DNA of 64,000 nt from Plantimonas leprariae. GTDB lineage: Bacteria; Pseudomonadota; Alphaproteobacteria; Rhizobiales; Rhizobiaceae. The notes under the pieces were generated by a model. It searched no databases. It was not told the origin of the DNA and saw only the letters and a program-made list of their open reading frames with translations. A program made the position numbers and the translations under genes. Below, piece by piece: positions 14,676 through 29,556 of the stretch. Each line of letters starts with the position of its first letter. Position 1 is the stretch's first letter. The DNA lies in assembly GCF_008802405.1 (NCBI RefSeq), contig NZ_VZDO01000011.1, forward strand, positions 1 to 64,000, read 5' to 3'.

Positions 14676-14688
14676 AAGGAGTGCGCCG

Positions 14689-15786
14689 ATGGCAACCAAC
14701 TCGGTGAAGTCGAACGCGCTGGAGCCGACGCAGGCCGAGCTGGCGCATCTCACCTCATCCGCGCGCCTCGCCCGCCTCGTGCCGGTCTACGGTCTCGTCA
14801 TCCTGGCGGTGCTGCTGGCGCTGTTCTTCTCGGCTCTGCTGCCGAACACCTTCCCGACCCTTCTGAACCTGCGCTCGATCGTCGCCGACAAGTCGATCAT
14901 CGCCATCCTGTCGCTGGCCGTGATGATCCCGATGGTCACCGGCAAGATCGACCTCACCGTCGGCTACGGCATCGTGCTCTGGCATATCCTCGCCATCAGC
15001 CTGCAAGTCTGGCTTGGGCTGCCGTGGCCGATCGCGGTGCTCGTCGTCGTCCTGCTCGGAGCCCTGGTCGGCCTCGTCAACGGCCTTCTCGTCGAGGTGG
15101 CTCAGATCGACAGCTTCATCGCCACACTCGGCACCGGCACTGTGCTCTACGCCATCGCCATGTGGCATTCGCAGGGGCGCCAGATCATCGGCGCGCTGCC
15201 GGACGGCTTCTTCGCCTTGAATACCACGCGGCTCGCCGGGATGCCGATCACCGGCTTCTACGTCCTGGCGCTCGCCATCACGCTCTGGTTCGTGCTCGAA
15301 TACCTGCCGGTCGGCCGCTACTTCTATGCCATCGGCGCCAATCCCAAGGCGGCGGCGCTGAACGGCATTCCGGTCAGGCGCTACACGGTCGCCGCCTTCG
15401 TCGCCTCCGGCACCCTGACGGCGGCAGCCGGAGTGATCCTCGCCGCGAAGCTCAGGATCGGTCAGGCGAGCGTCGGCCTCGAATTTCTCCTGCCGGCTCT
15501 GGTCGGGGCGTTCCTCGGCTCGACCACGATCAAGCTCGGGCGGGTCAACGTCTGGGGGACCCTCGTCGGCGTCGTCATTCTCGCCATCGGTATCGCAGGC
15601 ATCCAGCAGCTCGGCGGCTCCTTCTGGGTCGAGCCGATGTTCAACGGCCTGACGCTGCTCATCGCCATCGGCATCGCCGGCTACGCGCAGCGAAAGCGCG
15701 GCGCGTCCGCAGCGCGCCTGCCGCGCCGAGCAGACAGCCGCAGCGCCTCCGCGTTGCGGACAACTGGGGAGGAAGCACAACGATGA
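14689..15786 (+). CDS. Sugar ABC transporter permease (RbsC type)
   Basis: Inner-membrane permease of 365 residues, BPD_transp_2 family. About eight to ten hydrophobic helices begin near residue 25. The family signature is visible in SLAVMIPMVTGKIDLTVGYG, LVNGLLVEVAQIDSFIATLG and AIGANPKAAALNGIPVRRY. GAAAGGAG precedes the ATG. The stop overlaps the next start (ATGA), so translation of the permease and the binding protein is coupled. Confidence 0.92.
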   Translation: MATNSVKSNALEPTQAELAHLTSSARLARLVPVYGLVILAVLLALFFSALLPNTFPTLLNLRSIVADKSIIAILSLAVMIPMVTGKIDLTVGYGIVLWHILAISLQVWLGLPWPIAVLVVVLLGALVGLVNGLLVEVAQIDSFIATLGTGTVLYAIAMWHSQGRQIIGALPDGFFALNTTRLAGMPITGFYVLALAITLWFVLEYLPVGRYFYAIGANPKAAALNGIPVRRYTVAAFVASGTLTAAAGVILAAKLRIGQASVGLEFLLPALVGAFLGSTTIKLGRVNVWGTLVGVVILAIGIAGIQQLGGSFWVEPMFNGLTLLIAIGIAGYAQRKRGASAARLPRRADSRSASALRTTGEEAQR

Positions 15787-16883
15787 AGACGATACTGCTG
15801 GGTGGCGTCGCCGCCTTTGTTCTACTCGCGCCGGCCAGCAGTCTGGCGGACGAGTTCATGGACGCGGCGAAGGCGAAGGTCGAAGCCGCGACGCAGAAGG
15901 CCGGCGCCTGGGACGGACCGACGACGGGACCGAAGGCGGCAACCGGCAAGACGGTCGTCTACGTCGCAGGCGACCTGAAGAACGGCGGCACGGAAGGCGT
16001 ATCGCGCGGCGTCGAGGAAGCCGCGAAGGCGATCGGCTGGACGCTCAGGGTGATCGACGGCCGGGGCGAGATCTCGGGACGCACCGCCGCTCTCAACCAG
16101 GCCATCGCGCTGCAGCCGGACGGCATCATCGTCGGCGGCTTCGACGCGATCGAGCAGAACGCCGCGCTCGCCGGCGTGAAGGAGGCGAACATCCCGTTCG
16201 TCGGCTGGCACGCGACCATCGAGCCCGGCCCGGACGCGCAGACCGGCATGTTCGCCAACGTCAACACCCGCATCGCCGACGTGGCCGAAACGGCGGCCGA
16301 CCTTGCGATCGTCGAATCGGGCGGCAAGGCCGGCGTCGTGATCTTCGGCGACTCGACCTACGCGATGGCGATCGGCAAGGCGCGGATGATGGAGGCGCAG
16401 ATCAAGAAATGCGGCGGCTGCGAGGTGCTGACGCTGGAGGACTCGCCGATGGCGGAAGCCTCGACCCGCATGCCGCAGCTCACCACGGCGCTCCTGCAGC
16501 GCTTCGGCGACAAGTGGACCCATTCGCTGGCCGTCAACGACCTCTACTACGACTTCATGAGCCCCGGCCTCGCCTCGGCCGGCAAATCGGGCAGCGACGC
16601 GCCGCACAACATCTCGGCCGGCGACGGCTCGGAATCGTCGTTCCAGCGCATCCGCTCCAAGCAGTTCCAGATGGCGACGGTGCCCGAACCGTTGCATCAG
16701 CAGGGCTGGCAGCTGATCGACGAGCTTAACCGGGCGTTCGGCAACCAGCCCTGGTCGGGCTATGTATCCGGCATCCACCTCGTCACGGCGAACAACGTCG
16801 CCTTCGACGGCGGTGCCGACAACGTCTTCGATCCCGACAACGGCTACCGCGACGTCTACCGGAAGATCTGGGGCGTCAAGTAA
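15783..16883 (+). CDS. Sugar ABC transporter substrate-binding protein (RbsB type)
   Basis: Periplasmic binding protein of 366 residues with a signal peptide ending SSLADEF. The type I sugar-binding fold is seen in KTVVYVAGDLKNGG, EAAKAIGWTLRVIDGRG, IALQPDGIIVGGFD and NTRIADVAETAADLAI. The start is the ATG that overlaps the permease stop. Gene order ATPase, permease, binding protein differs from the commonest order in which the binding protein comes first. No kinase or dehydrogenase is attached to this operon, so the sugar is not indicated. Confidence 0.88.
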   Translation: MKTILLGGVAAFVLLAPASSLADEFMDAAKAKVEAATQKAGAWDGPTTGPKAATGKTVVYVAGDLKNGGTEGVSRGVEEAAKAIGWTLRVIDGRGEISGRTAALNQAIALQPDGIIVGGFDAIEQNAALAGVKEANIPFVGWHATIEPGPDAQTGMFANVNTRIADVAETAADLAIVESGGKAGVVIFGDSTYAMAIGKARMMEAQIKKCGGCEVLTLEDSPMAEASTRMPQLTTALLQRFGDKWTHSLAVNDLYYDFMSPGLASAGKSGSDAPHNISAGDGSESSFQRIRSKQFQMATVPEPLHQQGWQLIDELNRAFGNQPWSGYVSGIHLVTANNVAFDGGADNVFDPDNGYRDVYRKIWGVK

Positions 16884-17030: not shown

Positions 17031-18548
17031 TCAGCGCTGTTGAAGTCGTTGGACACTGTTGGTCCTGAAGCTCGACAGGACATACGAGAGAAGCGGCCAG
17101 ACCAGGAGGGCGAGGGCGAGCACCATCAAGGTCGCGACAAGCCCGTTCGACCAGAAGATCGACGCCGAACCGCCCGACAGGATCATCGACTGCCGGAAGG
17201 CGTCCTCGGCCTTGTCGCCGAGCACCATGGCGAGGACGAAGGGCGCGATCGGATAGTCGAGGCGCTTGAAGACGTAGCCGACGACGCCGAAGCCGACGGC
17301 CAGCCAGACGTCGAAGGGCGCGCTCGCGACCGTGTAGGCGCCGATGAGGCAGACCACGATGATGATCGGCCCGATGATCGCGAAGGGGATGCGCAGGATC
17401 GAGGCGAAGAGCGGCACCGTCGCGAGCACCAGCACCACCGCGATGATGTTCGACAGGTACATCGAGGCGATGAGACCCCAGACGAAGTCGGGCTGCTCGG
17501 TGAACAGGAGCGGCCCCGGCTGCAGGCCCCAGATCATCAGGCCGCCCATCATCACGGCCGCCGTCGCCGAGCCCGGCACGCCGAGCGCCAGCATCGGCAA
17601 CAGCGCCGAGGTGCCGGCGGAATGGTCGGCGGTTTCGGGCGCGACGACGCCTTCCGGCTCGCCCTTGCCGAAGTTCTGCCGGTAGCGGCCGAAGCGGCGG
17701 CCGAGGCCGTAGCTCATGAAGGAGGCCGCGGTCGGCCCGCCCGGCGTGATGCCCATCCAGACGCCGATCACGGCCGAGCGCAGGAACGTCACCCAGTAGC
17801 GCGGCAGGCGCGCGAGCGAGCGGAACACCTCGCGGATGTCGATCTTCGAGGCGACGCCGCGAAACTTCAGGTCCTCCTGCACGGTGAGGAGCAACTCGCC
17901 GATACCGAAGAGGCCGATCACCGCGACGAGGAAGGACACGCCGCGCAGGAGGTCGTTGAGGCCGAAGGTGAGGCGCAGCGCGCCCGACACGGTGTCCATG
18001 CCGACGGTCGCGAAGGACAGGCCGACGAGCAGCGAGACCGCCGTCTTCATCGGGTCGGCGCCGCCGAGCCCGATGAACGAGGCGAAGGCGAGAAGGTAGA
18101 TCGCAAAGAACTCGGGCGACGAGAAACGCAGCGCGAAGTCGGCGATCCAGCCGGCGAGGAAGGTGATGACGAGGACGCCGACGAGCGCGCCGAGGCCGGC
18201 GGAGAAGAAGGCGGTCGACAACGCCTCGGTGGCTCGGCCCTGCTGCGCCATCGGGTAGCCGTCGAAGGTGGTCGCGACGGATGACGGCTCGCCGGGGATA
18301 TTGAACAAGATCGAGGTCGTCGAGCCGCCGAACAGCGCGCCCCAGTACATCGACGACAAGAGGATGATCGCCGACACCGGGTCCATGGAGAAGGTCAGCG
18401 GCAGCAGCAGCGTCACGCCGTTCGGGGCCCCGAGGCCGGGCAGGACGCCGACCAGGATGCCGAGCAGCACGCCGACGACGATGATGCCGACGTGGTAGAG
18501 CGAAAAGGCGACCGTGAAGCCGTGAAGCAGCAGGGAAAAGTCGGCCAT
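17031..18548 (-). CDS. tctA: Tripartite tricarboxylate transporter permease TctA
   Basis: Large membrane subunit of a TctABC secondary transporter, 505 residues with about 11-12 hydrophobic segments. Family hallmarks: GILVGVLPGLGAPNGVTLLL near residue 30, PGEPSSVATTFDGYPMAQQG, and GITPGGPTAASFMSYGLGRR. The start at 18548 is chosen because homology begins at MADFSLLLHGF. It lies 11 bases downstream of tctB in the operon. TctA with TctB moves carboxylates delivered by the periplasmic TctC protein. Here it ends an operon for sugar-acid type catabolism, so a hydroxylated carboxylate is the likely cargo. Confidence 0.92.
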   Translation of the reverse strand: MADFSLLLHGFTVAFSLYHVGIIVVGVLLGILVGVLPGLGAPNGVTLLLPLTFSMDPVSAIILLSSMYWGALFGGSTTSILFNIPGEPSSVATTFDGYPMAQQGRATEALSTAFFSAGLGALVGVLVITFLAGWIADFALRFSSPEFFAIYLLAFASFIGLGGADPMKTAVSLLVGLSFATVGMDTVSGALRLTFGLNDLLRGVSFLVAVIGLFGIGELLLTVQEDLKFRGVASKIDIREVFRSLARLPRYWVTFLRSAVIGVWMGITPGGPTAASFMSYGLGRRFGRYRQNFGKGEPEGVVAPETADHSAGTSALLPMLALGVPGSATAAVMMGGLMIWGLQPGPLLFTEQPDFVWGLIASMYLSNIIAVVLVLATVPLFASILRIPFAIIGPIIIVVCLIGAYTVASAPFDVWLAVGFGVVGYVFKRLDYPIAPFVLAMVLGDKAEDAFRQSMILSGGSASIFWSNGLVATLMVLALALLVWPLLSYVLSSFRTNSVQRLQQR

Positions 18549-18559
18549 CGCTGCAGCTC

Positions 18560-19099
18560 CTAGTAAAGGCCGACCAGCGGCATCAGGACGCCTTTCTCCA
18601 GCGGCACCTGAAACCAGAACTCGAAGATCAGGTAGAACGCCGCCATCAGGGCGACGGAGATCAGCGCACCCTTCCAGAGCGGCACCCGCCCGAGGATCCA
18701 CATCGAGACGACGAGGAAGAGCACGGCAGCGATGTAGAGGCCGAGCCAGGGAATGAGCGCGGCTGCCGCCGCCGTCGGCACGAATACCGACGCGATGCGC
18801 TTCAGCGCGCCGGCTTCGAAGAAGCGACGGTCGAAATCGGCCTCGGTTTCGGTCGGGCTCGAAGCGTCCGCCGCCGCGAGGGCCGCGGCTCGATGCCGGC
18901 GGCCGGTCAGGCCGTAGCGCACGGCGATCGCAAGGCCGAGCGCGACGATGATCGCGCCGATGCGGAACGGAAAATACCCGGCCGTCGGCCCGGTTTCCGC
19001 CCAGCCGATACCGTTCTCCAGGCTGCCGTAGCACACGACGGCCCCGAAGATGCTCAGCGCGAGGCCGGTCCCGACCTCCATGTGGCGGCGCGTCAGCAT
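18560..19099 (-). CDS. tctB: Tripartite tricarboxylate transporter small membrane subunit TctB
   Basis: A 179-residue protein with four hydrophobic segments: two near the N-terminus (around VGTGLALSIFGAVVCYGS and FRIGAIIVALGLAIAV), a charged loop, then two more. This is the usual TctB topology. The ATG at 19097-19099 follows GGAGGCGGG; an upstream in-frame ATG at 19153 lacks a ribosome site. It is translated just before tctA. Confidence 0.87.
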   Translation of the reverse strand: MLTRRHMEVGTGLALSIFGAVVCYGSLENGIGWAETGPTAGYFPFRIGAIIVALGLAIAVRYGLTGRRHRAAALAAADASSPTETEADFDRRFFEAGALKRIASVFVPTAAAAALIPWLGLYIAAVLFLVVSMWILGRVPLWKGALISVALMAAFYLIFEFWFQVPLEKGVLMPLVGLY

Positions 19100-19131
19100 C
19101 CCGCCTCCGTTCGGTAAGATATCAGGAAACA

Positions 19132-19170
19132 GCCGGACGGAGCGCGGCCGCAAGGCCGCTTCCGTCCGGC
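19132..19170 (-). other. Strong stem-loop between tctC and tctB
   Basis: GCCGGACGGA at 19132-19141 pairs with TCCGTCCGGC at 19161-19170. An inner stem CGCGGCC/GGCCGC-type pairing (one bulge) closes a GCAA tetraloop. It sits in the 84-base gap after the tctC stop and before the tctB ribosome site. There is no proper U run after it on the transcript, so it looks like an mRNA-protecting or attenuating hairpin that would raise binding-protein yield over the membrane subunits. The function is inferred. Confidence 0.6.
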
Positions 19171-19183
19171 GAGCGGCGGCGCG

Positions 19184-20176
19184 TCAGTCGACGAGCCAGC
19201 CGTCCTTCTCGAACTGCGGGCGCAGCTGTTCGGTGTTCTGCTTGATGTACTGCTGCATCTCGTCGCCGGCGACGAAACGGCCGGTCTGGGACGTCGTCTT
19301 CAGGTAGTTCTGGAATTCCGGCGTTTCCGAAACCTTCTTCAGCATCGCGGCGTAGTAGGCGACGGCGTCCGGCTGGACCTTGCCCGGCATGAACACAGTG
19401 CGCGGCTGCTGGTAGGCGGTCTGGATCGGCAGACCCTGCTCCTTGCAGGTCGGAATGTCGTTCCAGCTCATGTCGGCCGTCATCTTGGTCTTGTCGGCGA
19501 GCCGTTCGGTCGACATCACGCAGAGCGGCCGCACCTGGCCTGCACGCCACTGTCCGGTCGTCTCGGCCGGGTTGTCGGTGTTGGCGTCGATGTGCTTGCC
19601 GGCGAGCTGCGTCGCGGCTTCGGCACCGGACTTGAAGGGAACGTAGGTGAACTGCGCCCCGGTCGCGGCCTCGATCTGGCGAACCAGCGTCTGATCGGTG
19701 TCCTTCGATTGCGAACCGCCGAACTTGATCTTGCCCGGCTCGGCCTTCGCGGCCGTCACCATGTCCATGATCGTCTTGTAGGGCGCGTCGGGCTGCACCC
19801 AGACGATGAACTCGTCGAAGGCGAGGACCGCGACGGGCGTCAGCTCCTCGCCCTTGTAGCCGACCTTGGTGACCAGCGGCAGCACCCACTCGTTGTTGGT
19901 GCCGGTGACCAGCTTCTGGGCATCGCCCTGGTAGCCCTTGGCGTAGATGAAGGCCTCGACGCCCGAGCCGCCGCCCTTGTTGACGACGACGACGTTGGTC
20001 GGGTTGAGGTCGTGCTTCTGGATCGCCGCCTGGATCTGGCGAGCGAAGGTGTCGCTGCCGCCGCCGGCATTGCCGGACACGACCAGCTCCACCGGGCGGC
20101 GCGGCGCCCACTCGGCGGAAGCGGGAGCCGCCGCGAGCGCCACGAGCGCCGTGCAGGCTGCGAGTAAGGTCTTCAT
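19184..20176 (-). CDS. tctC: Tripartite tricarboxylate transporter substrate-binding protein TctC
   Basis: Periplasmic solute-binding protein of the Bug/TctC family, 330 residues, with a signal peptide ending PASAEW. Typical features are RPVELVVSGNAGGGSDTFAR, VVVNKGGGSGVEAFIYAKG, the GSQSKDTDQTLVRQIE segment and GWLVD at the end. The ATG at 20176 follows GGGAGGA. A 99-base gap separates it from the kinase gene. Its placement with catabolic genes rather than a two-component sensor suggests regulation by the divergent GntR protein. Confidence 0.9.
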   Translation of the reverse strand: MKTLLAACTALVALAAAPASAEWAPRRPVELVVSGNAGGGSDTFARQIQAAIQKHDLNPTNVVVVNKGGGSGVEAFIYAKGYQGDAQKLVTGTNNEWVLPLVTKVGYKGEELTPVAVLAFDEFIVWVQPDAPYKTIMDMVTAAKAEPGKIKFGGSQSKDTDQTLVRQIEAATGAQFTYVPFKSGAEAATQLAGKHIDANTDNPAETTGQWRAGQVRPLCVMSTERLADKTKMTADMSWNDIPTCKEQGLPIQTAYQQPRTVFMPGKVQPDAVAYYAAMLKKVSETPEFQNYLKTTSQTGRFVAGDEMQQYIKQNTEQLRPQFEKDGWLVD

Positions 20177-20199
20177 ACGATCCTCCCTGGATACGTGAC

Positions 20200-20214
20200 G
20201 GCCGATCGTCGGCC
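20200..20214. promoter_or_regulatory. Inverted repeat between kinase gene and tctC
   Basis: GGCCGA, TCG, TCGGCC: a perfect 6-bp inverted repeat in the gap upstream of tctC. It could be an operator for an internal promoter or a weak terminator for the kinase gene. It is GC-only apart from the inner A/T pair and may be coincidental. Confidence 0.28.
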
Positions 20215-20275
20215 GGATGATTGTTTCGGCGTTCCCGCGGGCCGTCCTTCCCGGCCGCGCCGAACGAACGTCCGG

Positions 20276-21997
20276 TTAATCGGTCCTCTGTCGCTCCAGG
20301 CGATCGGCGACGACGCTCGCGCAGAGCGCGAGAGACACGGCACCCGCGTCGGGATGGCCGATGGACCGGGCCGCCAGCGGACGAGCGCGACCTAGCCTCG
20401 GCGTCATCGGCGCAGTCGCCTCCGCCGCTTGTGTCGCGGCATCGGCAGCCCGGCGCCAGGCGGCGGCCAGCGGCTCGCCGGCTTCGATCCCGCGGGCGAG
20501 CGTTTCCACGAAGGGAACGAGCGCGTCGACCAGCGTCTTGTCGCCCACCTGGGCTCGCCCAAGCCGCATCACCCGATCGCGTGCTTCGCGCGCGCCTGCA
20601 GCGACGTCGGCATCTCCCGGCTCGGCCTCGTCGGACAGTTTGGCGGCCCAACCGCGCAGGAGAAGACCCCAGATCGCACCCGACGTGCCTCCGGCCCGGT
20701 CCGCCCACGCGTCGGCGGCCTCTTCCAGCAGGCTGCGTGCGCCTGCGCCGGCGCCGGCCGCGCGTTCCGCGGCTTCCAGAGCGGCGGTCGCACCGCGGCG
20801 CATGCCCTGGCCGTGGTCGCCGTCGCCGGCCAGCGCGTCGAGCTGGCCGAGTTCATGCTCCTTCTCCCGCAGCATCGCGGCGATCGCGCCGAGATGCGCA
20901 AGGATGCGGGCCGCGCCTTCGCGCGACGCCTCGCTCGCCGCCGGGAAGGCCCTGGCCGCTTCCGCCTCGTCGCGAACGGGCGCGGCGGGGCTCGTCTCGA
21001 TCGTCGCGCCACGGCGCATGGCGGCAGCGTCGCAGGGCGCGAGCCACAGCGGTTCGAGCTCGTCGTCGAGAAAGGTCAGCGTCAGCGAGCAGCCGGCCAT
21101 GTCTAGCGAAGTGACGAGCTCGCCGGCCTCCGGCTCGACCAGCGTCACGCCGGCCTCGGCAAGCTGGTCCGCGACGTGCGTCCAGAGCACGAACAGCTCC
21201 TCGTACTTCGTCGCGCCGAGACCGTTGAGGATCGCCGCGGCGCGCCCGTTCCAGCCGTCCGGGCGCTCGGCGAGCAGCTTGTCGACGAGGAGGGCGGCCA
21301 AGTCCGACGCCGACGCCGCCGGCTCCTCGCTGACGCCCGGCTCGCCGTGGATGCCGAGGCCGACGCCCATCTGGCCCTTCGGAACGGTGAACAGCGGCTC
21401 CTTGGCGCCCGGCAGCGTACAGCCGGCGAAAGCCACGCCGAGCGAGACGGTGCGCTCGTTGGCGCGTTCGGCCAGCCGCAGCACCTCGTCGATATCGGCG
21501 CCGGTCTCGGCGGCGGCGCCGGCGATCTTGAACACCGCGACGTCGCCCGCCACGCCGCGGCGCTTGCGCCGCTCGTCGGGTCCGGCGCTCGCCAAGTCGT
21601 CCACCACCGCCAGGATGCGAGCGTCGATGCCTTCGCCGCGCAGACGCTCGGCCGCCGCGCCGAAGTTGAGGACGTCGCCCGCGTAGTTGCCGAAGCCGAA
21701 CACGACGCCCATGCCACGGTCGGCGAGGCGGCCGATCCGAGCGATGCCTTGCGTCGAGGGCGAGGCGAAGACGTCGCCGCAAACGGCGGCGTCGCCAAGG
21801 CCCGGCCCGACATAGCCGAGAAAGGCCGGGTAGTGCCCGGACCCGCCGCCGATCACCAGCGCGACCTTGGCGGATCGCGTTTCGGCGGCGCGCACCGCGC
21901 CGCCCGCGACGCGCTGCACGTGGCGGGGATGGAGACGGCAGAAGCCGTCGAGGGCGGTGGCCGCGAAACGTTCGGGATCGTCGTGGATGCGGGTCAT
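20276..21997 (-). CDS. Dihydroxyacetone-kinase family protein (fused DhaK-DhaL)
   Basis: ATP-dependent kinase of 573 residues for a small keto-sugar. The DhaK part contains GGGSGHYPAFLGYVG near residue 47 and GLGIHGEPG, whose His is the residue that covalently binds the substrate carbonyl in this family. The DhaL part follows: LAGDGDHGQGM (Mg-ATP binding Asp residues) and GDKTLVDAL. Single-chain enzymes of this type use ATP, not the phosphotransferase system. Members include dihydroxyacetone kinases and the erythrulose kinases of tetritol pathways. The ATG at 21997 overlaps the stop of the preceding isomerase gene (ATGA). Neighbours suggest a C4 keto-sugar substrate; that is inference. Confidence 0.88.
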   Translation of the reverse strand: MTRIHDDPERFAATALDGFCRLHPRHVQRVAGGAVRAAETRSAKVALVIGGGSGHYPAFLGYVGPGLGDAAVCGDVFASPSTQGIARIGRLADRGMGVVFGFGNYAGDVLNFGAAAERLRGEGIDARILAVVDDLASAGPDERRKRRGVAGDVAVFKIAGAAAETGADIDEVLRLAERANERTVSLGVAFAGCTLPGAKEPLFTVPKGQMGVGLGIHGEPGVSEEPAASASDLAALLVDKLLAERPDGWNGRAAAILNGLGATKYEELFVLWTHVADQLAEAGVTLVEPEAGELVTSLDMAGCSLTLTFLDDELEPLWLAPCDAAAMRRGATIETSPAAPVRDEAEAARAFPAASEASREGAARILAHLGAIAAMLREKEHELGQLDALAGDGDHGQGMRRGATAALEAAERAAGAGAGARSLLEEAADAWADRAGGTSGAIWGLLLRGWAAKLSDEAEPGDADVAAGAREARDRVMRLGRAQVGDKTLVDALVPFVETLARGIEAGEPLAAAWRRAADAATQAAEATAPMTPRLGRARPLAARSIGHPDAGAVSLALCASVVADRLERQRTD

Positions 21998-22950
21998 GCC
22001 GTCGCCACCGAAGTCGCTCGAAGGATGCGGCGAAGGTAGTCTCGGTTCGCCGCGCAGACGCTGAGACCGTCGCCGCCGTAATGTTCCAGAAGGAATGCGC
22101 TGCGGAAGCCGGCCTGTAGCGCCATGCGGACGGCGGCGCGGTAGTTGATGACACCGAACTCCATCGGGGCCGGCGAGGACATCACGGTCCCCGTCGTTTC
22201 GTCCTCCAGCCGGTAGTAGTTCTTCGCGTGCCAGTAGCCGGCGAAGGGCGCGAGCTTCGCCATCATCGACTGCCAACCTTCAACCGGGCGATGCAAACGC
22301 ACCAAGTTGCCGAGATCGCAGTTGAGCTTGACGTTCGCGAGATCGACCTCGGTCACGAAGCGAACCGCCGAGTCGGCGGTGCCGAGATAGGTGTCCTCGT
22401 ACATCTCCAGCGCCACCTCGACGCCGTTCTCGCCGGCATGACGGCCGAGCTCGCGGATGCGCTCCACCGCCATTTTCCACACCGCCGGATCGTCCGGGTT
22501 GACGACGCCGGGGGCGGTCCAGAACCAGAGCGCCTTCTTTTGCGCGTCCGACAGCGGGCCGAAGAAGCCGAAGGACACGGCGGACGCCCCGATCTTCGCC
22601 GCCGTGTCGACGAGGCGGTGACCGTAGGCGAGGAATTCATCGCCTTTCTCCGGATCGATCACGCTGCGCCGGGCCGTCGAGATCGCTGGGATCGACAGCC
22701 CGAGCGAGCGGGCGACGTCCATGAACTCGGCGAGGCGCGACGGCTCCAGATCGGCGATCCGAATCCAGGAGTCGGTCGGATCGACGTGGCTGAAGCCGGC
22801 GCCGGCGACTTCGGCGAGCGCTTCGGCCCATTCTTCCGGCCGCTGGTCCTGAACGGTGCGGCCGTCGGGAAGCGCGTTCTGCCGATGGATCATCGCCGAG
22901 GCGATCGGCCAGGTTTCCGGAGCGTAGGGCAGGTTGGTGGTGCTGGACAT
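21994..22950 (-). CDS. Sugar-phosphate isomerase/epimerase-like TIM-barrel protein
   Basis: A 318-residue protein of the xylose-isomerase-like/AP-endonuclease-2 TIM-barrel superfamily. Candidate metal ligands are visible: Glu in VALEMYEDTY, Asp in VKLNCDLGNL, His in YWHAKNYYR, and Glu in FLLEHYGGDG near the C-terminus. The superfamily contains isomerases, epimerases, dehydratases and a 3-oxo-acid decarboxylase of sugar-acid pathways, so the reaction is open. It lies between the pdxA-like gene (ten bases upstream) and the kinase (overlapping), firmly inside the operon. Confidence 0.82.
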   Translation of the reverse strand: MSSTTNLPYAPETWPIASAMIHRQNALPDGRTVQDQRPEEWAEALAEVAGAGFSHVDPTDSWIRIADLEPSRLAEFMDVARSLGLSIPAISTARRSVIDPEKGDEFLAYGHRLVDTAAKIGASAVSFGFFGPLSDAQKKALWFWTAPGVVNPDDPAVWKMAVERIRELGRHAGENGVEVALEMYEDTYLGTADSAVRFVTEVDLANVKLNCDLGNLVRLHRPVEGWQSMMAKLAPFAGYWHAKNYYRLEDETTGTVMSSPAPMEFGVINYRAAVRMALQAGFRSAFLLEHYGGDGLSVCAANRDYLRRILRATSVATA

Positions 22951-22960
22951 CGAGGGAAAC

Positions 22961-24001
22961 CTACTCGGCCGCCTGCGCGAAGCGCCCGCGGCGCTTCGCC
23001 ATCCTGATCGCGAGCCGGAGCGCCTCGCGGGTCGCGCCGACGTCGGCGATGCCCTTGCCAGCGATGTCGTAGGCGGTACCGTGCGCCGGCGTCGTCAAGG
23101 GGAAGGGGAGGCCGCCCATCATGGTGACGCCCTTGTCGAAGCCCATCATCTTCATCGCGATCTGGCCTTGGTCGTGATACATGGTCAGAACCGCGTGCCA
23201 GCCTTCCTTCAAGGCGCGCAGGAACACGGTGTCGGACGGGAACGGTCCCTCGACGGCGTAGCCCTTCGCCTTCGCCTTGGCGACCGCCGGCTCGATGATC
23301 TCGATCTCCTCGCGCCCGAACGAGCCGCCGTCGCCCGCGTGCGGGTTGAGGCCGGCGACGAGAATGCGCGGCGATTCGATGCCGGCTTCGGCGAGGCAGC
23401 GCAGCGTCAGGTCGATCTCGGCGAGGATCGCGTCCTCGGTCAGGTGCGAGGCCACGTCCTTCAAAGGCACGTGCGAGGTGACGCGGGCGTTCCAGATGTT
23501 CGGCAGAACGTTGAATTCGCGCACCTTGCCGCGAAAACCCGTGACATCCGCGACGAAGCGGATCTCGTCGTCGTAGCCCTCGTAGGCGTAGCGCATCGCC
23601 TTCTTGTTGAACGGCGTGAAACAGACCGCGTCCGCTTCGCCGCGATGCGCCATCAGAAGCGCCTCGCGGAAGTTGCGGGTGGCGAAAGCGCCGCCCTCGG
23701 CGGTCGCCTCGCCGCGCCGGACCTCGGCGGGCGCGAGGTTCTTGAGGTCGACGAGGACGTTTCGCCCGGAGGAACGGGCCGCTTCCGGTGTATCGACGCG
23801 GTCGAGGTCGAGCGATACGCCCGCGACCGCAGCACCTTCGTCGAGAATGCGCGCGTCGCCGAAGACGACGATCCGCGCTTCGCGCTTCGCTTCGGGCAGG
23901 TCGAGGAACTTTGCGGTCAGCTCAGGGCTGACGCCGGCCGGATCGCCCATGGCGAGCGCGATCACCGGCGCTGCTTCGGAAGAAGTCGTGATGTTCGACA
24001 C
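22961..24001 (-). CDS. PdxA-family dehydrogenase (4-hydroxythreonine-4-phosphate / phospho-threonate type)
   Basis: NAD-dependent, metal-dependent dehydrogenase of 346 residues. The start is a GTG at 24001 with GGAGG ten bases before it. PdxA hallmarks: ALAMGDPAGVSPEL at the N-terminus and the three metal-binding His in TSHVPLKDV, LNPHAGDGGSFG and TMYHDQGQIA, plus TTPAHGTAYDIAGKG. True PdxA makes pyridoxal phosphate; PdxA2 paralogues oxidise phosphorylated tetronates such as threonate-4-phosphate in catabolic operons. The context (kinase, isomerase, TctABC, GntR) strongly favours the catabolic role. Unlike the described tetronate loci, no DUF1537 kinase is present here. Confidence 0.87.
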   Translation of the reverse strand: MSNITTSSEAAPVIALAMGDPAGVSPELTAKFLDLPEAKREARIVVFGDARILDEGAAVAGVSLDLDRVDTPEAARSSGRNVLVDLKNLAPAEVRRGEATAEGGAFATRNFREALLMAHRGEADAVCFTPFNKKAMRYAYEGYDDEIRFVADVTGFRGKVREFNVLPNIWNARVTSHVPLKDVASHLTEDAILAEIDLTLRCLAEAGIESPRILVAGLNPHAGDGGSFGREEIEIIEPAVAKAKAKGYAVEGPFPSDTVFLRALKEGWHAVLTMYHDQGQIAMKMMGFDKGVTMMGGLPFPLTTPAHGTAYDIAGKGIADVGATREALRLAIRMAKRRGRFAQAAE

Positions 24002-24066
24002 GGTCGATGCCTCCCAAGCGATCCGACGAAGCGAGCACTTAGAGCATCCGACATCCGCCCGCAAGC

Positions 24067-24089
24067 ATTTTGTCTTCTGTATGCAAAAT
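24067..24089. promoter_or_regulatory. Candidate GntR/FCD operator in the divergent promoter region
   Basis: ATTTTG, eleven bases, CAAAAT: a 6-bp inverted repeat at 24067-24089 in an AT-rich island within GC-rich DNA. The inner bases (TCTTCTGTATG) include TGTATGCAA, resembling FCD-type GntR operators. It lies between the divergent pdxA-like and gntR genes. A possible -35/-10 pair for gntR (TTGGCA at 24097, then TAGGTT after 17 bases) lies just downstream. Confidence 0.55.
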
Positions 24090-24160
24090 AATGTATTGGC
24101 AGGTGTCGGCGTTTGGCTTAGGTTGCGGACTGCTAGTGAGGTGAGCGGATCGGCAACCGG

Positions 24161-24844
24161 ATGAACGAACTCTCGCCGATGTCGGCTGCAGCGCTCGGTG
24201 GCGAGCGGATCTCGCGCCGCTCGCTGCACGACATGATCGTCGACCGCCTGCGGGACATGATCATCGAAGGCGAACTGCCGGCCGGCTCCCGCTTGCACGA
24301 GGTGCAACTCGGCGAGCGGCTCGGCATCTCCCGCACGCCGCTGCGCGAGGCGATCAAGTACCTGGCGAGCGAAGGGCTGGTGGAACTGGTGCCGAGCCGC
24401 GGCGCCAGCGTGAAACGCTTCAGCCCTAAGGACGTCGCCGACATGCTGGCGGTGATCGCCCGGCTCGAGGAACTCGCCGGAGAATTGGCCTGCCGCAACG
24501 CCGCGGACGAAGGGATCGCCCGCGTCCGCCGGATGCACGACGAGATGATCCGCTGCTATGGGGACGGCAACCGGCTCGACTACTACAAGCTCAACCAGGC
24601 GATCCACACGGCGATCGTTGAACTCGCCGACAACGAGACGCTCGCCGCGATGCAGGCGCGGCTGCAGATGCGACTGAAGCGCATCCGCTTCATCGGTCAC
24701 GAGGGACCGGAGAACTGGGCAGCCGCCGTGGCCGAGCATGAACAGATGATCGTCGCGCTCGAGGCGCGGGATGGTGCGAAGCTGGCATCTGTGCTCGGCC
24801 GCCACCTCACCAATGCCTGGGTCCGGGTCGAGCGCTTCGTCTGA
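24161..24844 (+). CDS. GntR-family regulator, FadR/FCD subgroup
   Basis: A 227-residue transcription factor. Residues 18-85 form the winged helix (SLHDMIVDRLRDMIIEG, then RLGISRTPLREAIKYLASEG, then VPSRGASVKRF). The C-terminal FCD domain is all-helical with metal-binding candidates in MHDEMIRC, NQAIHTAIV and EHEQMI. It is divergent from the pdxA-like operon and precedes two enzyme genes on its own strand. Proteins of this group usually sense a carboxylate or sugar acid and repress the adjacent operon, which matches the TctABC and PdxA context. Confidence 0.9.
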   Translation: MNELSPMSAAALGGERISRRSLHDMIVDRLRDMIIEGELPAGSRLHEVQLGERLGISRTPLREAIKYLASEGLVELVPSRGASVKRFSPKDVADMLAVIARLEELAGELACRNAADEGIARVRRMHDEMIRCYGDGNRLDYYKLNQAIHTAIVELADNETLAAMQARLQMRLKRIRFIGHEGPENWAAAVAEHEQMIVALEARDGAKLASVLGRHLTNAWVRVERFV

Positions 24845-24922
24845 CGAGGGCGGCGTCGAGACTTCGGCTCGCCTGCGATGCCGTTGGACCCGGATCGCCG
24901 ACGTTCATCGGGGATATGTGGA

Positions 24923-26329
24923 ATGAACACTCACTCCCGCTTCCGCCGGGCGACGCGTCCCGTCGAGGCCGCGCTCGTCGGCGCCGGCGCGTTCGGCCGC
25001 TCGCTGCTTGGGCAGGGTCGTCGCATGACGTTGCTCAACGTCCGCGTCGCGGTGGACGTCACGCCGGAACGCGCGGCCGATGCCTTTCGCGCCGCCGGTT
25101 GGGAAGACGCGGCGGTCGCTCGCTGCGACACGCCGAACCAGGTCGAGGCCGCTTGGCATGCTGGCCAGGCCGTCGCGGCCGGAAGTCTCGCCGACGTTCT
25201 GACGCTGCCGGTCGATGTGGTGGTGGAAGCCAGCGGCCATCCGGAAGCCGGTGCGTCCCATGCGCTCGCCGCCATCGAGGCCGGCAAGCACGTCGCGCTC
25301 GTCACCAAGGAGGCCGACTCCGTCGTCGGTCCCTGGCTCGCGGCCGAAGCCGCCAGCCGAGGTCTCGTCGTCACGCCGGTCGATGGCGACCAGCCGGCCC
25401 TGCTGATCGGGCTGGTGACTTGGGCGGAAACGCTTGGACTGCCGGTGATCGCCGCAGGCAAGTCCAGCGAATACGACTTCGTCTTCGATCGGGCGAGCGA
25501 GACGATGCTGAGCGAGGAGCGCAGTGCTCCGGTGCCGGGCTTCGACCGTTGCTGGGATGCCGCCGGCCGGCCGATCGCGGAGGTTGCGGCGGAACGCGCC
25601 CGTCTCGCGAGCGCGCTGCCGCAGCTCGCCGTGCCGGATCTCTGCGAGATGGGCATCGTCGCGAACGCGACGGGCCTGCTGCCGGACGTGCCCTCGTTTC
25701 ACGCGCCGATCGCACGGATCGAGGAGGTGGCCAGCCTCTTCGTGGAGCAGGTTCGCGGCGGCCTCCTGTCCGGCCGCCGTCGGCTCGACGTGTTCAACTG
25801 CCTGCGCGAGCCGAACGGCCTTTCCTTCGCCGGCGGCGTCTTCGTGGTCGTCGCCTGCGAGGACCGCGAGACGTGGGCCATTCTCGCCGGCAAGGGTCAC
25901 ACCGTATCGGCCGACGGCAGCGCCGCCATGCTCTGGCTGCCGCGCCACCTTCTCGGCCTCGAGGCGCCGATCAGCATTCTGGATGCCGCGGTCAACGGCG
26001 TCTCCGTCGCCGGCAGCCCGAAACCGGTCGTGGATCTCGTCGGCCGCACGTCGAAGCGCCTTGCCGCCGGCACGAAGCTCGAGGCCGTCGGCCACCATCA
26101 TACGATCGACGGCGTCGGCCCGGCGCTGCTGCCGGCCGCGCCGCTTGGGCCGCACCGGCCGATCCCCTACTACCTCATGGCCGGCCGCACGATCCTGCGC
26201 GACGTCGAGGCCGGCGAAACGATCATGGCCGGCGATGTCGCGATCGACGAGGCGGCGCCGCTCCTCGCCATGCGGCGGCGGCAGGACGCGCACTTCTTCG
26301 GCGCGAACGCCGGAACGCTGGATCGGTAG
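24923..26329 (+). CDS. NAD(P)-binding oxidoreductase with C-terminal SAF domain
   Basis: A 468-residue protein of the homoserine-dehydrogenase-like SAF group. The N-terminal Rossmann motif is AALVGAGAFGRSLLGQG, followed by VDVVVEASGHPEAGASHAL and KHVALVTKEADSVVG, the same layout as homoserine dehydrogenase. The end carries a SAF-type segment (MAGRTILRDVEAGETIMAGD), a fold found in altronate dehydratase, sialic acid synthase and FlgA. The substrate is unknown. It starts 78 bases after the GntR gene and is likely regulated by it. In this locus it would oxidise a branched or linear sugar acid before the kinase step; that placement is inference. Confidence 0.8.
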   Translation: MNTHSRFRRATRPVEAALVGAGAFGRSLLGQGRRMTLLNVRVAVDVTPERAADAFRAAGWEDAAVARCDTPNQVEAAWHAGQAVAAGSLADVLTLPVDVVVEASGHPEAGASHALAAIEAGKHVALVTKEADSVVGPWLAAEAASRGLVVTPVDGDQPALLIGLVTWAETLGLPVIAAGKSSEYDFVFDRASETMLSEERSAPVPGFDRCWDAAGRPIAEVAAERARLASALPQLAVPDLCEMGIVANATGLLPDVPSFHAPIARIEEVASLFVEQVRGGLLSGRRRLDVFNCLREPNGLSFAGGVFVVVACEDRETWAILAGKGHTVSADGSAAMLWLPRHLLGLEAPISILDAAVNGVSVAGSPKPVVDLVGRTSKRLAAGTKLEAVGHHHTIDGVGPALLPAAPLGPHRPIPYYLMAGRTILRDVEAGETIMAGDVAIDEAAPLLAMRRRQDAHFFGANAGTLDR

Positions 26330-26458
26330 GAACGAGGGGCGGCGCTCAAGCGCTGTTGTCACAGCCCGAACGGCCTGCTGCCGACCGACGTCGCCCGATG
26401 GCGAACCACGCCGGCAGTGCCCGCTACGCCGGGTGCAACCTCTGGGAGTCCAACTGCG

Positions 26459-27427
26459 ATGATCGAGAAAATCGAGAACGTCAGCGTCATCGGCGCCGGC
26501 TATATGGGTGGTGGCATCGCTCAGTCGCTGGCGGCAGCCGGCATGAAGGTGATGCTGGCCGACGTCTCCCCGGAGGCGACGCGGAGCGCGCTGACCCGTC
26601 TGCTCAGCGAGGCGCGGGACTTCGAGGCGCAAGGCCTGTTCAAGGCCGGGTCGGCCGCCGTCATCGAGGCGAATCTTTCCGCCGCAGACTCGATCGAGGC
26701 TGCGGTCCGCGACGCGGACTTCATCGAGGAGGCCGTGCCGGAAGTGCCGGCGATCAAGCACGAGGTGCTCGGCCGGATCTGCGCCGCGGCGCGGCCCGAC
26801 GCGATCATCGGCACCAACACCTCGACCCTGCCGGTCCACACGCTGGCGCCGGCCGTCACCCATCCGGAGCGTTTCCTGACGGTGCACTTCTCCAACCCGG
26901 CGCCGTTCATCCCGGGCGTCGAGCTGGTCTGCGGCGTCGCGACCGACCGGGCGCTGATACCGGTGGTGAAGGACATGCTGCGGCGCGCCGACCGCAATAG
27001 CGCCGAGGTCGCGGACACGCCGGGCTTCGTCCTGAACCGTCTGCAATATGCGCTGCTGAAAGAGGCCAACTCGATCGTCGAGGAGGGAGTCGCCACCCCC
27101 GCCGACGTCGACGTGATCGTCCGCTCGACCTTCGGCTTCCGCCTGCCGTTCTTCGGCCCGTTCGCCATCGCCGACATGGCGGGGCTCGACGTCTACGCCA
27201 ACTGTTTCAAGACGTTCGAGGACGCTTTCGGCGAGCGCATGGCGACACCCGAACTTCTGAAGGGCTTGGTGGCGGAGGGCAAGTTCGGCGTGAAGAGCGG
27301 CGAGGGTTTCACCGGCAAACACGACCCGGAGAAGCTGGCGAAACTCGTCGCCTACCGGAACAACGCCTATGCGCGCATGGCGCAGCTCCTGCAGGAACTC
27401 GGCCCATCCCCGCTTGCTGAGAGCTGA
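26459..27427 (+). CDS. 3-hydroxyacyl-CoA dehydrogenase family NAD-dependent oxidoreductase
   Basis: A 322-residue beta-hydroxyacid-type dehydrogenase. Rossmann motif VSVIGAGYMGGGIAQ at residues 8-22. Catalytic residues of the family are visible: Ser in TNTSTLPVH, His in VHFSNPAPF and Asn in TPGFVLNRLQ, followed by the EANSIVEEG helix and GVKSGEGF. Besides acyl-CoA enzymes, this family includes L-gulonate 3-dehydrogenase and L-carnitine dehydrogenase. No thiolase or CoA ligase is nearby, so a sugar-acid 3-dehydrogenase role is favoured. The ATG at 26459 is chosen by homology; the gap of 129 bases before it shows no other gene. Confidence 0.85.
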   Translation: MIEKIENVSVIGAGYMGGGIAQSLAAAGMKVMLADVSPEATRSALTRLLSEARDFEAQGLFKAGSAAVIEANLSAADSIEAAVRDADFIEEAVPEVPAIKHEVLGRICAAARPDAIIGTNTSTLPVHTLAPAVTHPERFLTVHFSNPAPFIPGVELVCGVATDRALIPVVKDMLRRADRNSAEVADTPGFVLNRLQYALLKEANSIVEEGVATPADVDVIVRSTFGFRLPFFGPFAIADMAGLDVYANCFKTFEDAFGERMATPELLKGLVAEGKFGVKSGEGFTGKHDPEKLAKLVAYRNNAYARMAQLLQELGPSPLAES

Positions 27428-28695: not shown

Positions 28696-29556
28696 TCAGC
28701 GCAGGCGGGGTGGCAGGTCCGGGACGGTGAAGGCACCGGGAATGCCGCCGTTCAGCGGAAACGACCCGGCCGTCACGAACCCGGCATCGTCGCTCGCGAG
28801 ATAGGCGGCCGTTGCGGCCAGTTCCTCCAAGGTCCCGAACCGTCCCATCGGCATGTGCGTGAAGCGGCGCGCGGCCTGGTCCGGACCTATGCGTTCGAAC
28901 GTCGCCCTGATCTCCCGCGTCTCGATCGGGCCGATGGCGAGGGCGTTCACCCGGATGTTGCCGCGGGCGAGGTGCACGCCGAGGTCGCGCGAGAGCTGCT
29001 CCACGCCGGCCTTGGCGGCGTTGAACGCCATCTGGCCCGTGGCGGCGCCCATGCCCGCCAGGAACGAGGCGGTGTTGATGACCGAGCTTGCGGATGCTCC
29101 CTTGCCCATGTGCGGGATCGCGTGCTTGCAGCTAAGCCATGTCGCCGTGAGGATCGAGGCGATCACCCGGTTCCAGGTTTCCAGCGTGGTGTCGAGCGCC
29201 GAGTGATCGTCCGGATCGAGCGGCCCGGCATTGTTATAGAGAACGTCCAGGCGGCCGAACCTTTCGGCCACGCTCGCATAGGCAGCGGCGACGGCATCCT
29301 CGTCGGTCAGGTCGGCGATCAACGGCAGTTCACCGATCGCATGCGGGCGGCGGTCGATGCCGACGACGATGCCGCCTTCATCGGCAAAGCGCCGGGCGAC
29401 CACCTCGCCCATGTCGCCCAGCACACCCGCGACGACGCAGACGCGCCCCTCAAGACGGCGTTCTCGCACGACACCACTCCTGTATCCGCTTTCAGCGCCG
29501 TTGCCGGCACAAGCGCCGGCCGGTGTCGGCTCCATGGTTTCGCCGAGCGATCTCAT
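28696..29556 (-). CDS. SDR-family oxidoreductase with Phe at the catalytic Tyr position
   Basis: A 286-residue short-chain dehydrogenase-like protein. The coenzyme loop is unusual (VVAGVLGDMGEVVARRF), followed by DVLYNNAGPLDPDDHSAL (NAG motif) and NTASFLAGM (Ser). Where the family has Tyr-x3-Lys this protein has AFNAAK: the codon is TTC, so the catalytic Tyr is replaced by Phe. The late IGPIETREI and GSFPLNGGI segments are normal for the classical SDR fold. The start at 29556 overlaps the stop of the upstream monooxygenase gene (ATGA), so the about 30-residue N-terminal extension may be real; a GTG about 28 codons in is the alternative. Activity is doubtful or altered. Confidence 0.82.
   Translation of the reverse strand: MRSLGETMEPTPAGACAGNGAESGYRSGVVRERRLEGRVCVVAGVLGDMGEVVARRFADEGGIVVGIDRRPHAIGELPLIADLTDEDAVAAAYASVAERFGRLDVLYNNAGPLDPDDHSALDTTLETWNRVIASILTATWLSCKHAIPHMGKGASASSVINTASFLAGMGAATGQMAFNAAKAGVEQLSRDLGVHLARGNIRVNALAIGPIETREIRATFERIGPDQAARRFTHMPMGRFGTLEELAATAAYLASDDAGFVTAGSFPLNGGIPGAFTVPDLPPRLR

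Follow-up and report, generated by a model that had tools for sequence, protein, structure and literature searches.

The window analysed here is a stretch of 64,000 nucleotides from Plantimonas leprariae (contig NZ_VZDO01000011.1, positions 1 to 64,000). Its positions 17,031 to 27,427 are proposed to encode a catabolic pathway in which a C5 sugar acid would be converted to erythrulose and then to erythrose 4-phosphate, leading into the pentose phosphate pathway; the probability of this reading is put at about 0.62. The gene set is real and conserved, and the pathway would represent a variant assembled from known families. Gene content, residues and co-occurrence are observed; each reaction, the order of the reactions and the substrate are inferred. 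The locus comprises the following nine genes:

17031..18548, minus strand: tctA, large permease of the tripartite tricarboxylate transporter (Pfam TctA, 482.9 bits)
18560..19099, minus strand: tctB, small permease (Pfam TctB, 69.4 bits)
19184..20176, minus strand: tctC, periplasmic acid-binding protein (Pfam TctC, 93.8 bits; solved Tct/Bug binders, best E 5e-27)
20276..21997, minus strand: DhaK-DhaL fusion kinase (DhaKL), best read as an erythrulose kinase (LerK-like; Dak1 + Dak2; clade accompanies DerI and ery-type TPI)
21994..22950, minus strand: xylose-isomerase-type TIM barrel, putative erythrulose 3-epimerase or decarboxylase (Pfam AP_endonuc_2)
22961..24001, minus strand: PdxA-family dehydrogenase, putative NAD-dependent oxidative decarboxylase of an unphosphorylated C5 sugar acid (Pfam PdxA, residues, tree)
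24161..24844, plus strand: GntR/FCD regulator, divergent from the pdxA operon (Pfam GntR + FCD)
24923..26329, plus strand: SAF/DRL-type NAD(P) oxidoreductase (SAF), a DXR-II relative and a frequent but dispensable partner (PF21135, NAD_binding_3)
26459..27427, plus strand: 3HCDH-family dehydrogenase, outside the conserved set (Pfam 3HCDH_N + 3HCDH)

Each gene is a single open frame with a Pfam match above cut-off, which confirms the nine genes, their positions and the minus-strand operon divergent from gntR described in a first-pass annotation of the window. The genes of the TIM barrel and DhaKL overlap by four bases, and the GTG start of pdxA was picked via a ribosome-site-like stretch upstream. 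All three parts of the tripartite tricarboxylate transporter, TctA, TctB and TctC, are present.

The first-pass annotation also proposed a neighbourhood search for a six-enzyme set with SAF as the anchor. Ten plasmid neighbourhoods and the best 80 of 518 SAF relatives in bacterial genomes were combined to 90 loci, on which 16 reference proteins were mapped (loci and stretches are given L numbers below, contigs of the P. leprariae genome C numbers). Within 9 kb of SAF, a PdxA gene was present in 45 of the 80 genome loci, making PdxA the most frequent enzyme of the set besides the anchor. DhaKL was found in 12 of the 80, together with PdxA in all but one of them, namely L038, which is cut off by a contig end. 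OtnK occurred in 26 loci, PdxA was present but DhaKL, TIM barrel and OtnK absent in 20, and all four were missing in 25. The gene association exceeds a chance neighbourhood. The 3HCDH-like gene, in contrast, had no counterpart in any of the 90 loci (E 1e-8 and half of the query length), so that the six-enzyme set is ruled out as a unit. This gene is a neighbour or local addition and not a member of the conserved set.

The module also occurs without SAF. In Shinella and on S. meliloti 1021 pSymB, the genes run GntR / PdxA-TctC-TctB-TctA-TIM-DhaKL and the stretch contains no SAF; module-bearing stretches of Propionivibrio soli and an Accumulibacter metagenome-assembled genome (MAG) likewise lack it. 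Two Aureimonas genomes carry GntR / PdxA with the TIM barrel, DhaKL and Tct genes apart from their SAF locus, and in Paracoccus sp. TOH a single run TIM-DhaKL-PdxA-TctCBA-SAF-OtnK-aldolase is found. The conserved unit thus consists of GntR, PdxA, TctCBA, the TIM barrel and DhaKL; SAF may accompany it but is dispensable for the module. The earlier assignment of the oxidation to the SAF and 3HCDH-like enzymes is not supported, as one of them is dispensable and the other not conserved.

A PdxA clade with a changed phosphate pocket

The PdxA of the window matches PF04166 with 292.5 bits (cut-off 27). None of seven PdxA models reached its NCBIfam equivalog cut-off (TIGR00557 264.3 of 290.35 bits, PRK03371 200.3 of 583), and in the annotated loci examined the subfamily is labelled 4-hydroxythreonine-4-phosphate dehydrogenase. 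In E. coli PdxA numbering, H166, H211 and H266 are taken to be the metal ligands, and H136, T137, N283 and R292 presumably contact phosphate or substrate. Alignments including solved structures reveal that the window PdxA retains H166, H211, H266, D267 and K274, and the three histidines are present in every PdxA signature printed. The other four residues are replaced by E, I, T and L, respectively.

This change is shared by related enzymes. Among the PdxAs from SAF, TIM-barrel or DhaKL loci, 60 were scored (56 + 4 rows), and H136, N283 and R292 are replaced in all of them, T137 in 55. Their pocket follows the pattern E, I/T/S/N, T and L/I/V. The PdxA of L036, excluded from scoring with a frame running to 718 amino acids, reads KTL at the K/N/R positions, like other clade members. 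All seven phosphate-type controls keep HT..NR: 1ps7 (E. coli PdxA), 6e85 (D-threonate 4-phosphate dehydrogenase), the PdxA-type structures 2hi1 and 4jqp, a Pantoea enzyme annotated as D-threonate 4-phosphate dehydrogenase, and both other PdxAs of the P. leprariae genome.

Two PdxAs adjoining ring-hydroxylating dioxygenase genes (L113, L114; terephthalate/phthalate diol dehydrogenase type) resemble the window enzyme in that the PdxA fold and metal ligands are kept and the phosphate residues lost. Their substrates should carry no phosphate. They differ in reading YP..AF instead of E[ITSN]..T[LIV] and fall outside the window clade, and no aromatic genes are found at the present locus. The window clade together with one PdxA encoded beside a tartrate dehydrogenase gene is monophyletic with a support of 0.98. 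This additional PdxA (L115:7998-9026) has a similar pocket change, EH..TF, so enzymes that act on dicarboxylic hydroxy acids may belong to the non-phosphate clade as well.

Since the residues that hold phosphate are absent, the window PdxA is expected to act ahead of any kinase. The loss of the arginine and the gain of a glutamate would argue for a neutral, hydroxylated substrate end. Judged by these residues, the enzyme seems to be a repurposed vitamin-B6-type enzyme that no longer needs a phosphate on its substrate.

The kinase, its genomic partners and the TIM barrel

The window kinase is a Dak1-Dak2 fusion. Its possible partners were surveyed in 50 of the 80 genomes (L013-L061 and L089, the latter picked because of its DhaKL). 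A DhaKL with at least 61% identity to that of the window is present in 20 of them, the next matches reaching at most 46%. DerI, defined by the NCBIfam model for D-erythrulose-4-phosphate isomerase, exceeds its cut-off in 19 genomes, all of which belong to these 20; the remaining one scores 238 bits with a cut-off of 240. None of the 30 genomes without the DhaKL clade has a DerI above cut-off. The association gives a Fisher value of 6.6e-13, uncorrected for relatedness. The 20 genomes include Mangrovicella, Aureimonas, Rhizobium-type, Phyllobacterium, Mesorhizobium, Propionivibrio and Accumulibacter, and the same 20 encode an ery-type triose-phosphate isomerase (TPI), which in five of them matches at 39-40% and was assigned by its adjoining DerI. 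In a comparison of 24 genomes, at least two TPI matches were found in all 12 genomes with DhaKL beside SAF vs 3 of the 12 without.

Physical linkage is observed as well. RpiB and TPI genes lie within two of 18 DhaKL loci: in L023, DerI-TPI-DhaKL adjoins PdxA, and in L042 a deoR-like gene, TPI and RpiB stand beside the whole gene set. The latter order resembles the rhizobial eryR-tpiB-rpiB module as given in the available part of PMC3599248. Eight further stretches (L162-L169) were selected by their matches and illustrate occurrence, not frequency. L162 (Propionivibrio soli) and L163 (the Accumulibacter MAG) are arranged as TctA-TctB-TctC-PdxA / GntR / DerI-TPI-DhaKL, with no TIM barrel, SAF or OtnK. 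L164 reads DhaKL-TIM-TPI-DerI with PdxA absent from its 13 kb, and in L165-L167 the kinase is located away from PdxA and TPI. This linkage to DerI and TPI, both with and without PdxA, makes the clade resemble an erythrulose kinase that was recruited here rather than a private part of the pathway. The window DhaKL is best read as such a kinase, similar to LerK, whose chemistry, together with that of LerI, DerI and the epimerase EryC, is described in the accessible text of PMC10733421. The earlier suggestion of a DhaK-type erythrulose kinase in place of a DUF1537 kinase is supported by the DerI association and the clusters.

The P. leprariae genome itself has a single RpiB match, which passes the DerI model (255 vs 240 bits). 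Its DerI gene, on C32, adjoins another TIM-barrel gene. The genome, rated 100% complete, also has a single TPI match (C22:164075-164809, L149), which groups with the ery-type rather than the housekeeping enzymes in a tree of 31 sequences. The notion that LerI is absent because the genome has only one TPI was dropped, given this grouping.

Kinases of the DUF1537 type are missing from the contig of the window, as stated earlier, though not from the genome, where they occur on C7, C10 and C17. On C17, the kinase adjoins a PdxA that keeps HT..NR. C10 encodes proteins above the cut-offs for ApnL (816 vs 750 bits) and OiaX (750-751 vs 700 bits), an OiaK-like kinase below its cut-off (437 bits, cut-off 700), a Gfo/Idh-type dehydrogenase, a sugar ABC transporter and a protein of the PGDH_C family, presumably the family of ApnO. 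No model of the ApnL, OiaX or OiaK type is among the NCBIfam matches listed for the nine window proteins (E 1e-3). With apionate-type genes on a separate contig, the window locus most likely serves another acid.

The TIM barrel matches the solved structure 5tnv (E 3e-94); the remaining structural matches are weak (E 0.0004-0.006) and mostly ketose 3-epimerases. Its putative metal ligands E182, D212, H241 and E289 are kept in 19 homologues, apart from one truncated row. The protein would most likely convert D- to L-erythrulose or aid the decarboxylation. Among 240 genomes drawn from the class, a search at E 1e-30 found only the window's own copy, so the family is rare or patchy. Of 94 plasmid records with relatives, 84 belong to Sinorhizobium and Ensifer.

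The SAF oxidoreductase and the surroundings of the locus

The gene previously described as encoding a SAF-domain oxidoreductase does encode an oxidoreductase; its matches, however, are to PF21135 (DRL_cat, 79.1 bits) and NAD_binding_3 (28.3 bits), and not to a SAF model. The protein aligns with the Brucella DRL structures 3upl/3upy (E 2e-37). The available part of PMC3847144 names Lys191 and Lys193 as fosmidomycin anchors of DXR-II and reports that a DXR mutant was not complemented by any of four proteins tested from the related DLO families. Lys191 aligns with K180 of the window protein, Lys193 with Ser182 (a serine in all ten aligned SAF sequences), and Thr229 falls outside the aligned stretches.

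The partners of SAF were compared with a tree of 86 SAF proteins, from which L012 (frameshifted SAF) and L042, L053, L086 and L089 (stops in the translation based on high-scoring segment pairs) were left out. PdxA requires at least 14 changes on this tree, DhaKL 6 and OtnK 15, with shuffle means of 29, 11 and 25. As these numbers are lower than in the shuffles, the partners follow the tree in part, yet were exchanged repeatedly. In 30 of 80 loci, a GntR gene of the window class (at least 53% identity) lies no more than 700 bp from PdxA, and in 32 of 80 one of a second class (below 53% identity to that of the window) is equally close to SAF. SAF and PdxA hence often form separate units, which stand side by side in the window. 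The pairing of SAF with OtnK and an aldolase suggests that SAF delivers a 3-oxo acid.

Several genes recur around these loci. Amidohydrolase-2 genes are found near SAF in 13 loci (L028:190-2487 among them) and MFS transporter genes in 8, which would be consistent with a lactone or an acid as the substrate. A weak relative of LtnD (28-33%, hydroxyacid dehydrogenase type) follows tctA in L162:1364-2023, L163:730-1407, L066, L068 and L069 and may be a further pathway enzyme. In L025 and L033, an NAD-epimerase-type gene comes after SAF and a PdxA of 45-46% identity, and genes of the aldehyde dehydrogenase and CoA-transferase families lie upstream. The SAF gene at L012:12001-13380, on a Rhizobium ruizarguesonis plasmid, contains frame breaks. 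A second SAF/DRL paralogue of P. leprariae with 31% identity (C38:49206-50438; L002, L110) is located near a D-Ala-D-Ala carboxypeptidase-family gene and an SRAP gene.

A shared operator, for which 72 divergent intergenic regions were scanned for palindromes, was not established: TTGCATGCAA was present in 22 of them, the eight printed cases all beside SAF. Other palindromes were present in fewer than 22 of the 72 regions, and none of the motifs occurs in the window. Promoter-like sites (0 observed vs 0.5 in shuffles) and terminator-like sites (3 vs 5.5) were not enriched, and no relative was found in the viral contigs scanned. The frames at 13179-16883 of the window, convergent with tctA, resemble a sugar ABC transporter by sequence and are taken as unrelated to the locus. 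Frames at 28696-31079, which resemble an SDR and an FAD-type monooxygenase-like gene, show no sign of belonging to it.

Proposed pathway and alternatives

In the proposed pathway, TctABC would import the C5 sugar acid, as its family suggests. PdxA would then oxidise the 3-hydroxyl with NAD+, and the resulting 3-oxo acid would lose CO2 to give erythrulose; this step transfers PdxA chemistry to a C5 substrate. The TIM barrel, encoded by a gene that overlaps that of the kinase, would turn D- into L-erythrulose or assist the decarboxylation, and DhaKL is predicted from its genomic linkage to phosphorylate erythrulose. LerI, the ery-type TPI paralogue, and DerI would finally yield D-erythrose 4-phosphate; both are encoded elsewhere in the P. 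leprariae genome, and beside PdxA and DhaKL in other genomes. SAF would act as an auxiliary dehydrogenase, feeding a 3-oxo acid into either this branch or a parallel one. The carboxylate-type importer, the one-carbon loss and the C4 keto-sugar of the first-pass annotation find support in the genome evidence. PdxA was left without a role there, yet it is the commonest enzyme of the set besides SAF and likely the decarboxylating dehydrogenase. If erythrulose is the kinase substrate and PdxA is a decarboxylating dehydrogenase, the imported compound would be a C5 acid with a secondary 3-hydroxyl group, either a pentonate or a branched, isoapionate-like acid.

Several observations weigh against this pathway. 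NCBIfam assigns the kinase to its 'dihydroxyacetone kinase family protein' (733 vs 492 bits). LerI and DerI are outside the fetched stretch in 16 of the 18 DhaKL loci and are not in the window, and no PdxA accompanies the DhaKL-clade copies in the stretches retrieved for L164-L167, which means that the clade is not restricted to this pathway. The association of DerI and DhaKL is confounded by shared ancestry. Weaker RpiB-type matches occur in eight of the 30 genomes that lack the clade, and more distant relatives of DhaK (34-45% identity) likewise in eight. The TPI of P. leprariae also passes the NCBIfam model for ordinary triose-phosphate isomerase (317.8 vs 293 bits), and its DerI on C32 may belong to a tetritol locus and could serve that alone. 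The TIM barrel is absent from L023, L162 and L163. Finally, the frequent pairing of SAF with OtnK (26/80) points to C4 acids for that branch.

The main rival starts from a C4 acid. Here, PdxA, acting on an unphosphorylated substrate, would oxidatively decarboxylate a tetronate (threonate or erythronate, perhaps L-erythronate) to dihydroxyacetone, which DhaKL would phosphorylate to dihydroxyacetone phosphate, bypassing OtnK and OtnC. Genes for OtnK, OtnC, OtnI or LtnD-like proteins are frequent in SAF loci, the OtnK genes of L006, L007 and L009 being annotated as 3-oxo-tetronate kinase. The family name of DhaKL fits, and glycolysis would be reached without an additional isomerase. However, this route was set back by the association of the DhaKL clade with DerI and ery-type TPI over 50 genomes and by L162 and L163, where PdxA, DerI, TPI and DhaKL cluster without OtnK. 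It also leaves the TIM barrel without a clear role, and is considered rather unlikely.

A further idea concerns SAF, which might be a second, unrelated oxidoisomerase of the DXR-II fold. Convergently with apionate oxidoisomerase, it would rearrange a branched C5 sugar acid to a 3-oxo acid, which either OtnK/OtnC or the TIM barrel and DhaKL would then drain. This function is tentative and judged improbable.

The kinase could instead act first, with DhaKL phosphorylating the acid and PdxA following, as in D-threonate catabolism with a swapped kinase. PdxA2 is a known partner of tetronate kinases, and K274 is retained in the window PdxA. Four pocket residues are nevertheless replaced, including the charged arginine and the asparagine; these four are also missing from the PdxAs encoded next to aromatic dioxygenases, and 20 of the 80 SAF loci carry this PdxA with no DhaKL, TIM barrel or OtnK within 9 kb. 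This order of steps is therefore very unlikely.

An apionate-like route was guessed earlier. In it, apionate oxidoisomerase activity would come from SAF or the 3HCDH-like enzyme, 3-oxo-isoapionate would be decarboxylated to L-erythrulose by the TIM barrel, and DhaKL would phosphorylate this product. The downstream half fits, and a skeletal rearrangement is known in the SAF superfamily (DXR-II; PMC3847144, available part), but the route is highly improbable because the genome already carries apiose/apionate-type genes on C10 (ApnL, OiaX, the OiaK-like kinase and the PGDH_C protein), SAF is dispensable and PdxA would be without a task.

The conversion of a C5 acid via erythrulose can also be set beside known systems. 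Reportedly, the D-threonate pathway of Zhang et al. 2016 uses the DUF1537 kinase DtnK before PdxA2. It shares with the window locus a PdxA-family enzyme in sugar-acid catabolism and the oxidation at C3 with decarboxylation. The window PdxA differs in lacking the phosphate residues, the kinase is a DhaKL that would be placed after PdxA, in reverse order, and P. leprariae has a separate PdxA-DUF1537 pair on C17. The D-apiose and D-apionate pathways are said to have been described by Carter et al. 2018; they resemble the proposal in the C5 sugar acid, the loss of CO2 and, in one branch, L-erythrulose and its kinase, whereas the genes of the ApnL/OiaX/OiaK type lie on another contig in P. leprariae.

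The tetritol and L-erythrulose systems (LerK-LerI-DerI and eryR-tpiB-rpiB; available parts of PMC10733421 and PMC3599248) likewise combine a Dak-type kinase, a TPI paralogue and an RpiB-type DerI. The genes for these three are physically linked in L023, L042, L162, L163 and L164, but not adjacent in the window, where erythrulose would derive from an imported acid via PdxA and not from a polyol dehydrogenase. The DXR-II/DLO proteins, including Brucella DRL, share the NAD domain and the DRL catalytic domain with SAF (PMC3847144, available part); SAF differs in having Ser182 for Lys193 and in its linkage to catabolic operons. The available parts of the literature, including PMC11747546, PMC12540250, PMC12462448, PMC10733421, PMC3599248, PMC12780249 and PMC3847144, assign no substrate to the operon. 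Searches joining erythrulose with hydroxythreonine found nothing, and those combining tetronate, dihydroxyacetone kinase and PdxA gave, in the text available, nothing about such a pathway, subscription papers being mostly outside the scope of both.

What emerges is a PdxA subfamily that is expected to use unphosphorylated sugar acids as substrates and is tied to an erythrulose kinase branch. As the operon is present on pSymB of the model symbiont S. meliloti, this idea is directly testable there.

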